From Candidatus Vallotia laricis (GTDB lineage: Bacteria; Pseudomonadota; Gammaproteobacteria; Burkholderiales; Burkholderiaceae), in assembly GCF_020541325.1 (NCBI RefSeq), contig NZ_CP047399.1:930001-994000 (forward strand): a stretch of 64,000 nucleotides of DNA, written 5' to 3'. Under the pieces are notes generated by a model, which made no database searches, was not told where the DNA came from, and saw only the letters and a program-made list of their open reading frames with translations. Positions 17,722-55,734 of the stretch are shown in pieces. Position 1 is the first letter of the stretch; every line of letters starts with the position of its first letter. A program made the translations under genes and the position numbers.

Positions 17722-18210
17722 GGGCGACCGAAGCAGTGCGAGTCGTCAGCTGCATTTAGGGGTGCTTTTATAGATAGCAAAACTATACTCGGGTGTCTTT
17801 TGACAATATATGCGACACACTTTTATATAAGCAAACATGGCGCATATACTCTGAAACTCAGATACTATGATATTTAGGTGCGGTAGTTTTTAGCACTCTG
17901 ATCTGCATTTCAAACAAAATAGTAGACTTTACTAGTGCAGCTACCTTTACTAGTGCAGCTGCAACAAGGTTGGCAAGCTTAAGAAGTTGTGTGGAGCAAC
18001 GACTGTACTATTGTCTCGAATAGCTAACTTGAGAGCAGCTAGAAATAAAACTAGCCGCGCAGTTTTCTATCGTACGAAGCAGGCACTTGCGTGCCCACCT
18101 TCGTGGATTAGCACTTAGTTCACAAGGGTCAATAGAGATTTAGCGGCAATAGTTATTGATAAGCGGCGCTCACTTGTTGAATAATATTCAACGCTTTTTC
18201 GACACTGCCC
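17722..18210. other. Spacer between the Tim44-like gene and ubiB (ubiJ position)
   Basis: No gene is recognised. It contains an 18-bp tandem duplication (17927-17962). A short near-palindrome centred near 18184 lies just after the Tim44-like gene. An ubiJ/SCP2 gene would be expected here, but no remnant was readable. Confidence 0.5.
17927..17962. repeat. 18-bp tandem duplication
   Basis: CTTTACTAGTGCAGCTAC (17927-17944) is repeated at once as 17945-17962 with one mismatch (A to G at the 17th base). It is the same type of short tandem duplication as the one that breaks ubiK at 55498-55531. Confidence 0.85.
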
Positions 18211-19251
18211 TCAGGCCCGATTGCAGTCAGGCAGTTGCTGAATGCCAGCTAGTACCCAGTTTTTACTGCTATGCAGATTTTGGCTGAAATTCCATATTTC
18301 AGAAACTTGCTCAGTCGTGCCACCCTGGACCTCACGCAGCAGACTACAGAACCGTACTGATGCAGTAAACTCATTGTTACCGCAATTTTCAACGCCTATC
18401 AGATCAGCCTTCAGCTGTACTATATCAGTGCGATTTTCGCCATTTCGTGCATAAAGATCTCGCTTAATCTCAGAGAACATTTCAGTCGTTGTAAACTCTC
18501 GGATATCGCTAAGATTACCAGTGTCCCAGGCTGCTTGCAACCGCAGGAACCCTGCCTTTGCTTCTCTTATAAATGCATCGACATTAAAATCAGTGGGCAT
18601 TATAGAAATATTAAGAATGCTAGAGGAACCCGCGGCAGCGTACACCCCGCTATTAGGTTTAATGCTCGCCTGGTTCATACCTTCCGTCATAGAAAACTGT
18701 ACTGGTGTTTTATATTGATCTAGTGATTCGTCGGAAGCTAGATTAAAGGTACTATGAGCATAGGCTGGAGTAGATCGCGCGTTTCGATTCGAAAACTTAC
18801 GAAATAGCCATAGACCAGCGAATGCAACTAGGACAATAAGAACCGAATTGGTCAGCACGCTGACTAAGCCCCCTCCGAATCCAGATTGTGATAGTAAGGC
18901 TGCTAGCCCAAAACCAGCTGCTAATCCCGCAAGTGGGCTGAGCCAATCACGCTTGGGTGGAGGTGCTAAGGAATGTAGTGTTTGAGCATGGGGAGACGCC
19001 TGCGCACTTTGTGCTGGCGTGTTTAGTTGAATAGAAGGCTGCGCCTGTTGCTCGATATGAGACTGCCTTCCGATCGAGCGGCCGCTCCCTATACGCTTTG
19101 CTTCGGCACTACATGCGCTAAATAAACCGATAGCTAATAAGCTGGCTACCGCAATTGCTCCCAATCTAGGGCTTATAAGCGCACTGAAGAGCCGCGTAAT
19201 AGAAGTTAGAAAATAGAAAAAATTACTGCGAGAATTGGAATAGGCTAACAT
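18211..19251 (-). CDS. Tim44-like domain membrane protein
   Basis: Protein of 346 residues. There is a hydrophobic N-terminal segment (about 30-50) ending in a small-residue region, then a low-complexity Q/S/P-rich linker (60-100). A glycine-rich hydrophobic stretch and a transmembrane helix follow (about 105-150). The C-terminal Tim44-like domain runs from about residue 215 (AFIREAKAGFLRLQAAWDTGNLSDIREFTT). Such genes occur beside ubiJ-ubiB in Burkholderia; their biochemical role is unknown. SACSAEA near residue 46 could suggest a lipobox, but its setting is poor. Confidence 0.85.
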   Translation of the reverse strand: MLAYSNSRSNFFYFLTSITRLFSALISPRLGAIAVASLLAIGLFSACSAEAKRIGSGRSIGRQSHIEQQAQPSIQLNTPAQSAQASPHAQTLHSLAPPPKRDWLSPLAGLAAGFGLAALLSQSGFGGGLVSVLTNSVLIVLVAFAGLWLFRKFSNRNARSTPAYAHSTFNLASDESLDQYKTPVQFSMTEGMNQASIKPNSGVYAAAGSSSILNISIMPTDFNVDAFIREAKAGFLRLQAAWDTGNLSDIREFTTTEMFSEIKRDLYARNGENRTDIVQLKADLIGVENCGNNEFTASVRFCSLLREVQGGTTEQVSEIWNFSQNLHSSKNWVLAGIQQLPDCNRA

Positions 19252-21782
19252 CTGATTTCCTGGATGGGTTGCTAGTATTTGGCGGTGACATGCAGTGAAA
19301 TAACACCATATATCAGATCGTAATATCTAACGTTGTCCAGTCCGACTGCCTCTATCATAGTTTTATCGCCTCCCGACCCGGATGCAGCCAAATCGATTCG
19401 GCCAGATACCGATTACTCTCCAGGGGTATGAGCTACTTTTTTGCCGAGCCGTGGTAGAAGTTTAAATAAACATATATTATATGTTTATTTAGCAGCTGAT
19501 ACACTTTAGAAAAATCTAGAATTAATAGCTGCTGCCTAGCATAAATGCGTAGCACACTCCAGCAAGAGCAACCTTCTAGTTAGTTATACATGCGGCCAAA
19601 CGCGATATTTACTACGCTGAAGTAATAGTTTGAAAATAGCAATTTTCCGAATCGTCTAATATCGTAGGCATGTCTTGTTGGGCTACAGAACTAACTATTG
19701 ATAGCAGCATGCTATACTATTCAGGACAACCTTGCTTTGGTTGAATAAACATTTTAGCCCAGCCGTCAGCATATTACCAATTAATTTAACATATTTCGGC
19801 CGAGGCGTATGCCGGATTTATTAATACCGAAGGTTTTCCACGGGGGGGTGGAGTTTATTCGTAGTTCGATAACTACAATAAGTTTTCTCTATAATAAAAG
19901 TTCCTTGCTTAAAAGGCGTGATATATACCGTAGTAATATGCGCAGCAATCCATGATTGTAAATAACATATGAGTAACTATGTTTATTAGCGCGGCTCGTT
20001 CACACTATCCCTGCAAAATAGACTGACTAGTATTCTTTAGAAGTTCGGGGAACATGTGGAAATCTTACATATAGATATTAGAACTGTGCCTGTCGAAAAA
20101 TGCTAGCTGCTAGAGAATAGTGGAACTAGGCATTATTAAATGCATCTTAGGTAATATAAAACACGCCATGGATATGTGACTGATATAAGCTCTATATTAC
20201 GTGATATACACGGATCGTTACCAGCATATCAAAAAAATTTAGCGATCGACAACGCAATTTTAGTATTGCTTAATACATAGCGAAAAGTAGAAACAATAAA
20301 CAGTGTATAAAGTTTTAGAAAGTACCAAACATTGATTAGAGAATAGTATTTCTGTATTGGTAAGTAACTATCGTCCCGAGACGCACTGTTAAGCATGCCT
20401 TGATTTAGTAAGATCTGTATTTACCTGTAAAGAATAGGTAATATTACCATTAAAATAGCGTGTAAACTAGGTTTCTTCCTTTCAGAATAAATGCGGGGTA
20501 ATCACCAAAGTCCTGCCTAATTGGCTACATTTTTGTCAATCTGGCTGTTAATAAATAACTATATTTATAGAATCTGTATTCTTAGTGAGCATGTAAAAAA
20601 GTTTGCACTTATAATACACGTGGCCTATGCTACGCTATTCAATTAATAATAAGGAAATAGTGAACTACCGTAGTTTATAACAAGCCTCTTCTAGAAAAAT
20701 CTTAGTAGTGAAGTATTTTCACACTTGGTAGCCTAATGCATAGTTATTAGGATAGTTTCCATGCTATAGTCGTACTATCTAATAGTATATTTCTGGTGAT
20801 CGAATTACAAATATCTACAAAATCAGGATTTAGAGATGATCTCTGTCATCTCATGATTACTCAAGTACCTCGAATCGTCTATAAAAAATTGGTCGCATAG
20901 AAACAACTTTCCTATGGGGCTTGAGCGAAATTGAGTAGTTCTACTACTCATATTATATGAGCCCATAGTGGTTACAGATTCAGTAAGTGCATAGTTATAT
21001 TTTCTAATACTGGATTTATACACCGTTCTGCTACATCCCATATAAAATCTTTTGTAGCAGCAACGTCGCTAAAATCTTATTACGCTAGTTATATAGCAGC
21101 TTTGCACAAAATACGTATTCCGCGCATAAAGATCTAAATTTACCGTAAGATAGCAATATCAAAAAATTACTACTCACATTATGTCGATCTGCTTGTGACT
21201 CAGAATTTGCAGTTCCTAGATCCGCCATGCAACATATACACACGAGTAGATCCATATCACCAAGAGCTTAGTCTCATTGCATCTACTCTGAAGGTTTATT
21301 TCACGCTTAGGTCTATAAAATTCAATTTTGGTATTGGTGAGAAATACTGGCTAGTAATACAAATTCCGTTCCGGCAGGGGATATTACTAAAGCGGTGTAT
21401 CATTATAATACATGCTACCACTCATCTAGTACTTACTTAGGTGAGCCGAAAGTATGCTAACCATATTCCGCTGCTATATGGAATATGGTTAGCACTGATT
21501 GTGCATCTAGATTATTTCTATATACTTATATATAGATTCCAAATAATATCTTATTCTGGTGAGTTAGATTAGTATTAATCTAACTCAAGTTTATTTATAG
21601 GAAAACTAAATTAGTTTTACTCAAATTTATAGTTATAGTTCTAGCAACTAATATTATTTCTAGAATGTTTTTCTTAATACAAATAAGAAAAAACGCAATT
21701 CTTATCAAATTAGGATTTGACATAAGTATAAATCGAACTATAAGTTTTATAGTTGATTTTTGTATACATGGAAAAGCATTAT
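19252..21782. other. 2.5-kb gene-free region between ssb and the Tim44-like gene
   Basis: No gene recognised. It contains a G7 tract at 19842-19848 and an inverted repeat at 21456-21493 downstream of ssb. Open frames at 20823-21041 (minus) and 21195-21440 (plus) match nothing known. Confidence 0.5.
21456..21493. repeat. Perfect inverted repeat, 14-bp arms, 10-nt loop
   Basis: Arms GCTAACCATATTCC (21456-21469) and its exact complement (21480-21493). It lies about 290 nt 3' of ssb on the minus strand and may end that transcript, but no U-tract follows. Confidence 0.55.
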
Positions 21783-38569: not shown

Positions 38570-39283
38570 GCGTGCATCATAACTCCCGCTTCTGCAGTTG
38601 ATTATCTGATGCTTGGATCGGTACAACTCAATCTATCACTTTGGTAATACACATGCTCTAGATTAGCGTCTAGATTAGCGATCAGATTTCGACGACTATC
38701 TTGATATCATTATTGATAATAGTAGCTTATACATAAGGTGCACGCTTGCCTAGCATTAACTCGATCTTAAAAAATGCCAACAATTTTATTGTAACTGATT
38801 TTGAAGCTCACTAATGCCCTATAAACAAAACATAGCAAAATAATCTATTTTAGATCAAATTATCAGAAAAATTAGGTCGTGGCTAAATTAGCGGATAGGC
38901 GATTGCTTATTGATGTGGAGACTTTTTAGCTATCTGCGTGTATCTTTAAGACACATCAATCCTCATTATTTCTTAAGTGCTTTAGAAGATCCGCAACACG
39001 TGCACACATAAACCAGGTACCATGAGCAATGCTGGTAAAATCAGATGATTGCCATGAATTGGCCAAACAAACACCCTGAGCTTTCTAGAATCAATCCCGG
39101 TGTATTAGGAAACATATGTCAATAAAATAGCACCTATTAGATATGCTCTAAGAGCCACTCTTTGCGTCTCCACGCGTTAAATTAATAAGAGCTATTGTAG
39201 CTACAATAGTATTGAGTGCTAAAATGCCGGGTAGCTCCGTGTTCGTAGCAGCACGTAAAGCTGTCCACACAAGGAATATACGA
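38570..39283. other. 0.7-kb spacer between ftsY and rpoH
   Basis: No gene recognised. It contains a perfect 12-bp tandem repeat (38657-38680) and presumably the rpoH promoters, which could not be assigned by eye. Confidence 0.5.
38657..38680. repeat. 12-bp perfect tandem duplication
   Basis: TCTAGATTAGCG occurs twice in direct succession (38657-38668 and 38669-38680), followed by ATCAG. It is of the same type as the 17-18 bp duplications elsewhere in the window. Confidence 0.85.
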
Positions 39284-54176: not shown

Positions 54177-55486
54177 GGGTTGTTCCGGCAATATCGGCTA
54201 TTCAGGGTGTATTATCGAGGTACTGCTGTACTCTAGTAAGTTACGCAAGGCGCGCCTCTTCGTTATCCTACTAATTTACCTGATGCAGCTAACAGTTCAA
54301 GGAAAGTAATAGTGCAATACTTATGCTACATGTGACCTTCAATTCACAGAAAGAACTTGAGCTCACGGCCACTTAAATCCTGATAGCTATAATCTAGCGA
54401 AAACTGGATATTCAGATTTTTGGGAAGGTAGGTTTAATACCATATTTATTTTTATTGAAGTTACACATAGGCTTGTGATTGTATCTGAATCAATGTAGTG
54501 TCCATCAGCTTCTTAGCCACAGTATCACGACACTATCGCTGCTGCCAATATCTTTAATTGAGCATATACTAGTATAAAGTGCTACGTAATTTATACTAAA
54601 GTGCCAGATTATAAATCTAATAGGATTAAAAAGTGTCTTAGCGCAGCCTATTTTGGGGCTAAATTGCCAGCATAAGTCTTCTACTACTATCGTATACAGC
54701 ACCTAATAATCAATAGTTTACTTTCAGCTATTTATGGAGCGCACTGCAATTCAATCGACTCTAATACGTATTCTGAATATTATTATCTAAACATAGTTAT
54801 GTTAAAGATAAAAATCAAAATTCCTAATAAATACAGGTAGTTTCTTACTATTTATTCTAATTTATTTATATACACCGTACAATTTTAGTCTATTATGTCT
54901 AATTCTATCGGGATGTTTCGTCAGTATATGCATAAGTGTACATAGTTTTTTTACCGAAACTAAAATAGTTTCCATATTATGATGCAGTCATTACTTTAAT
55001 TACTTTCCTAATTCTAACTACAGTAGCTACTAGCTATTAATCGCAATTCGAAGGTCATTATCGGTTTCGCAATACAGCAGGAACTCTCTTTCTAGCAATC
55101 AAAGTTATAGCCTCGATCATTACAGTGTTTAAAAGATATGATTGTTATCATAGAGCACATTATGCATCTTTACCTTATCTAGGTTAATTAATTTAATGAG
55201 CACAGCAATACGTTTCATAGCATTGAATTATCTCAATAATAAGCCGCTGCGACTTAAGCTACCTATAGTGATAATTGTACAATATAGTATGTTTACAGTA
55301 CTTCAAGCAGTGCAGAAGTATTACGATCAATATCGTCGATACAGCATGCGAAAATCTTGGTTAGAATCACCTAACAGCCTCACTGCGCGGTTGAACATAC
55401 TATATCCCTTATCGCCCGCGTGACCATAGTGATAGACTGGAGCAATGCATAAACTTTATGCTGTATTTTAGATTTAGGAAAAAATA
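54177..55486. other. 1.3-kb region between gshB and ubiK without a gene
   Basis: Burkholderia carries gshA, amtB and glnK in this interval as I recall. None could be read, and the interval is far shorter than those genes. Open frames at 54505-54702 (minus) and 55196-55423 (plus) resemble nothing known. Confidence 0.45.
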
Positions 55487-55734
55487 ATGAAACAGTCTAA
55501 TGGAGTGTTAGACATAATGGAGTGTTAGACAATTTGAAGTCTAACTTTAGCAAAATGCTACAAAATTCGCTTGCAAAAGATGTCGAGCGCAACATCAAAG
55601 CGATGTTTTCGCAAAGCTTCTCTAAATTAAATCCAGTCACGCGTGAGGAATTTGACGCACAAGCTAATATTCTAGACCGCATTCAGCTGAAGCTCGAAGG
55701 GCTAGAGCGACGCGTATATCAGAACTTTAATTAA
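55487..55734 (+). CDS. ubiK: Ubiquinone accessory factor UbiK (BMFP domain), 5' end broken by a duplication
   Basis: The original start appears to be the ATG at 55487 (AGGA at 55476-55479). It encodes MKQSNGVLD and then hits a 17-bp tandem duplication (55498-55514, 55515-55531) that shifts frame to a TAG at 55526. The rest of the gene is intact from an in-frame GTG at 55522: 70 residues with the UbiK core NSLAKDVERNIKAMFSQ and the C-terminal coiled coil LEGLERRVYQ. UbiK helps ubiquinone synthesis with UbiJ. Removing one repeat copy restores a continuous 76-codon frame. It may survive through GTG reinitiation or be a new pseudogene. Confidence 0.75.
55498..55531 (+). repeat. 17-bp exact tandem duplication inside the ubiK 5' end
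   Basis: TAATGGAGTGTTAGACA occurs twice with no spacer. A 17-nt addition shifts the frame by two. The second copy supplies the GTG at 55522 that is in frame with the UbiK core. Confidence 0.95.

Follow-up and report, generated by a model that had tools for sequence, protein, structure and literature searches.

A frameshifting 17-bp duplication in ubiK of Candidatus Vallotia laricis, probably a late step of gene decay

The closest described organism is 'Candidatus Vallotia tarda', of the same genus-level group of adelgid symbionts (GTDB lists Vallotia under Mycetohabitans according to the accessible part of PMC12696581). In the accessible part of PMC8692619 it is described as unable to make ubiquinone, with six pseudogenes in the pathway, and both the loss of synthesis and the pathway pseudogenes resemble what we report here. 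The closest described protein is UbiK (YqiC), an accessory factor of ubiquinone biosynthesis from the BMFP family (PF04380), whose C-terminal coiled coil binds UbiJ in E. coli according to the accessible part of PMC9499169. The gene considered here lies in a 64,000-nucleotide stretch of the Candidatus Vallotia laricis genome, positions 930001-994000 of contig NZ_CP047399.1 and hereafter the window, and shares with UbiK its sequence family and its position beside lipA. It differs from UbiK in being broken near the 5' end and in its shortened tail, its alterations at 7 of 24 conserved columns and its eroded partner UbiJ. It also differs from the same locus in one genus relative (G003), where no ubiK is recognisable, whereas in the window a single fresh duplication breaks the gene.

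Termination-reinitiation is a known form of translational coupling. The window ubiK likewise has a stop codon that nearly overlaps a potential start codon, but this configuration comes from a frameshift inside one gene, not from the junction of two, and translation downstream of it is hypothetical. No description of this ubiK allele was found in the accessible parts of the literature on Vallotia and on the loss of ubiquinone in symbionts. The loss of the pathway is already in print for the sister species (PMC8692619), and the ubiK break is ordinary in kind.

The duplication and the reading frames of ubiK

The 5' end of ubiK carries an exact tandem duplication, two copies of a 17-bp unit that together span 55498-55531 (Table 1), as the original prediction had it. 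The copies match over precisely one unit and no further, hence there is no microhomology at the junction. Among 100 windows of 64 kb simulated with a first-order Markov model, only one contained any exact tandem duplication with a unit of 12-80 bp, and this single case was of 12 bp. The real window contains two, of 12 and 17 bp, the 12-bp one being located at 38657-38680. When the window genome (G000) was aligned with G002, G004 and G005, the frameshifting insert was confined to G000, so that the duplication is derived in the window's lineage. The 17-bp duplication is real, arose recently as a derived state, and disables ubiK.

The ancestral frame was proposed to be shifted by the duplication, and reading of the frames confirmed it. 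From the start common to G004 and G005, the frame translates as MKQSNGVLDIMEC and meets TAG 55526-55528 after 13 codons, so that no intact UbiK frame runs from the conserved start. The core of the protein is open from an in-frame GTG, also as proposed, and the corresponding frame matched the Pfam BMFP profile with 62.9 bits (cut-off 37.2). Upstream, this frame is bounded by TAA 55498-55500, and it ends with the stop at 55732-55734; its GTG (55522-55524) begins four bases before the TAG of the short frame. The NCBIfam UbiK model (NF047835, cut-off 100 bits) was discarded as a criterion because open homologues also fail it (45.7 bits for the GTG frame; 60.9, 71.8 and 72.9 in G005, G007 and G004). 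Programmed -1 frameshifting was ruled out, no XXXYYYZ heptamer starting between 55487 and 55529.

Table 1. Features of the ubiK locus and of the ubiB-ubiJ-ubiE region in the window.
Feature	Position	Strand	Basis
Short frame opening at the native ubiK ATG, 13 codons + TAG	55487..55528	+	start common to G004 and G005 (alignment)
AGGA 7 nt upstream of the native ATG, likely its ribosome-binding site	55476..55479	+	AGG kept in G004 and G005 (alignment)
Repeat copy 1, 17 bp	55498-55514	+	sequence identity
Repeat copy 2, 17 bp	55515-55531	+	sequence identity; missing in G002, G004 and G005
UbiK core, open frame from GTG, 70 codons + stop	55522..55734	+	frame reading, Pfam profile
ubiB, full length, 526 aa	16141..17721	-	above NCBIfam UbiB cut-offs
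ubiJ remnant with stops, remainder of gene unrecognisable	18001..18156	-	tblastn with the G007 gene, E 5e-04
ubiE pseudogene, fragmented over two frames and interrupted by stops	19275..19840	-	sequence search

ubiK and the ubiquinone pathway in related genomes

The genus set comprised eight genomes, four of 3.3-3.8 Mb and four reduced ones of 1.1-1.2 Mb, the latter being the window genome (1.126 Mb in two contigs), G002, G003 and G005. We obtained a tree from eight proteins (3,152 columns with much missing data), leaving out four rows that were broken or partial (lipB of G004, ubiB of G002 and tim44 of G002 and G003). G005 branched outside the group formed by G000, G002 and G003 with a support of 100, and the branching order inside this group received a support of 58.

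Matches to PF04380 were recovered in six of the eight genus genomes, including two of the four reduced ones, and in 36 of 41 genomes of a wider set. At the lipA locus, ubiK is open in G005 (74 codons), freshly broken in the window genome, decayed in G002 (L043:12716, where the start is changed, stops have appeared and the core is lost) and unrecognisable in the 880-bp gshB-lipA spacer of G003. In G005 a search for gshB returned nothing; in the other members of the genus that were searched, this gene lies close to ubiK or lipA. In the larger genome G004, lipB (L044:15970-16672) seems to be split over two frames, by either a break or a sequence error.

The neighbourhood was originally said to keep ubiB and to have no readable ubiJ, and both statements held: tblastn with the G007 gene adjoining ubiB recovered an eroded ubiJ remnant upstream of the full-length ubiB. 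The Pfam profile PF02036 (SCP2) was useless for finding UbiJ, as it matched in none of five genomes, including G007 with its UbiJ-like gene beside ubiB. Elsewhere in the pathway, searches of the window genome gave no match for UbiA or UbiD and no FAD hydroxylase of the UbiH/I/F type at full length (there were three FAD_binding_3 matches, the longest of 210 bp, compared with full-length ones in G007). The UbiJ partner and the Ubi enzymes that UbiK would accompany were thus not recovered intact in this genome.

The other reduced genomes displayed related losses. Remnants of UbiA with stops were present in G002, G003 and G005. UbiE was broken in G003 and G005 and not found at its usual place in G002, and UbiJ was broken in G003, in pieces in G002 and open in G005. 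For UbiG, all four reduced genomes gave solely matches below the cut-off, some with stops, and G007 one above it. Heme-copper oxidase subunit I (PF00115) was matched in none of these four genomes, while G007 has one. UbiB was broken in G002 and intact in G000, G003 and G005, being full length in these three genomes despite UbiA and UbiE being dead or not found there; it keeps its kinase-like motifs in all three. A Tim44-like gene located between ubiE and ubiJ (18211-19251, minus strand) was open in the window and in G005 and broken in G003 and G002.

Selection and conserved residues

Identity to G007 at codon positions 1/2/3 was 0.71/0.83/0.53 for the UbiK core of the window and 0.86/0.91/0.44 for lipA of the same genome. 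The corresponding values were 0.56/0.55/0.39 for ubiJ and 0.61/0.67/0.50 for ubiE, both from forced alignments, which contain 8 and 13 indels that break the frame, respectively. The clearer coding signature of the ubiK core indicates that UbiK was constrained for longer than these partners and outlived them.

Selection was further estimated with a codon model that assumes constant base composition, although composition differs among the genomes compared; several branches also approach saturation. Under this model, the dN/dS check foreseen by the original prediction gave an omega of 0.475 for the window's ubiK branch, and neither constraint (0.2; 2 delta lnL 1.8) nor neutrality (1.0; 2 delta lnL 1.2) was rejected with these 68 codons. 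Fixing the ubiK branches of both the window and G005 at an omega of 1 cost 2 delta lnL 8.0 (2 degrees of freedom), so that ubiK evolved under constraint during some of this period.

Constraint on ubiB in the window is relaxed though not absent: omega was 0.33 on its branch versus 0.08 elsewhere (two classes versus one, 2 delta lnL 24.0), and neutrality was rejected on this branch (2 delta lnL 7.2). No comparable shift was observed for lipA (2 delta lnL 1.5). Given the intact UbiB and the rejection of neutrality on the window branch, some quinone-related function may remain. The retention of UbiB was not taken as proof that it serves a role when ubiquinone is no longer synthesised: the ubiE losses in G003 and G005 look recent (pseudogene identities at positions 1/2 of 0.75/0.84 and 0.79/0.88, respectively), and the low ubiB omega in these genomes may thus predate them.

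At the 24 columns at least 90% conserved among 30 homologues, the UbiK core of the window differed at 7 and G005 at 5, the homologues themselves differing at 0-5. With an 80% threshold, the window differed at 8 of 29 columns, G005 at 6 and one homologue at 9. These departures speak weakly for relaxed constraint, because the count for G005 is nearly as high and, with the 80% threshold, a homologue exceeds the window. Two earlier counts, on 13 of 30 homologue loci and on 22 of 30 (8 of 23 columns in G000, 4 in G005), were replaced because their signature filter favoured the conserved motif; once all 30 loci were counted without filter, the difference between G000 and G005 was smaller.

Explanations for the disrupted frame

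The original prediction hesitated between a very fresh pseudogene and a natural case of termination and reinitiation. The former is favoured by the perfect repeat, the otherwise open core, the dead pathway and the state of ubiK in the other reduced genomes, where it is decayed or unrecognisable in two of three. We consider it likely that ubiK became a pseudogene recently, as one of the last components of a dead pathway to go. Ribosomes starting at the native site would make a 13-residue peptide and stop. Ubiquinone biosynthesis is already defunct in this genome (pseudogenes of ubiE and ubiJ, unmatched UbiA and UbiD, no full-length hydroxylase found), which would have left UbiK without a pathway to serve, and the break would have been tolerated for that reason. 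The perfect repeat points to a recent event, which may be why the core remains open. Starts at GTG 55522, TTG 55534 or ATG 55555 may still yield some truncated protein, probably without a needed function.

We regard as unlikely the other possibility, namely that ribosomes reinitiate at GTG 55522 (or start afresh at TTG 55534) and that a UbiK deprived of its six N-terminal residues works. The geometry allows it, the stop and the GTG lying within seven bases and the UbiK core being open. The GGAGTG of the repeat is also predicted to pair better with the anti-Shine-Dalgarno sequence than the native site does (-6.7 versus -4.2 kcal/mol), which somewhat favours a fresh start within the UbiK core, and the GGAG of copy 2 lies 11 nt upstream of TTG 55534. 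The stronger constraint on UbiK than on ubiJ and ubiE points in the same direction. However, the GGAG of copy 2 overlaps GTG 55522 and that of copy 1 lies 16 nt upstream of it, conserved residues have been lost, and the tail that would bind UbiJ is shortened, as it is in G005. The five sigma-70-like sites found between 55000 and 56300 (4.7 expected) were all on the other strand, leaving no promoter-like site on the plus strand of this interval, and UbiJ and the tested Ubi enzymes are dead or undetected. Reinitiation at GTG 55522 is mechanically possible, but a rescued UbiK would have little to serve.

An assembly error, or a minority variant of the sampled symbiont population, is very improbable. 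The duplication is known from a single assembly, but its 34-bp tract has no long homopolymers and fits within a single read of the usual types, and ubiK has been lost independently in relatives. We give scant credence to the idea that UbiK and UbiB were kept longest for handling a quinone acquired from the host or from a co-symbiont, with UbiK working by reinitiation at a start that the duplication placed next to the new stop. That collapse of the duplication toggles ubiK off and on as a reversible switch is hardly conceivable: the copies are exact and in tandem and their unit is not a multiple of three, but there are only two of them, no related repeat is present in the aligned G002, G004 and G005, and the gene would be of little use in a dead pathway.

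In all likelihood, the fresh break of ubiK is therefore an ordinary step, late in gene decay, and no new mode of translation. It provides a snapshot of a gene caught at its first disabling step. It also suggests an order of losses in one lineage, with UbiA, UbiD and the hydroxylases not found any more, erosion in ubiJ and ubiE, a new break in ubiK and an intact ubiB whose constraint is relaxing. Such an order bears on the life of bacteria that keep respiratory genes after the loss of ubiquinone synthesis.
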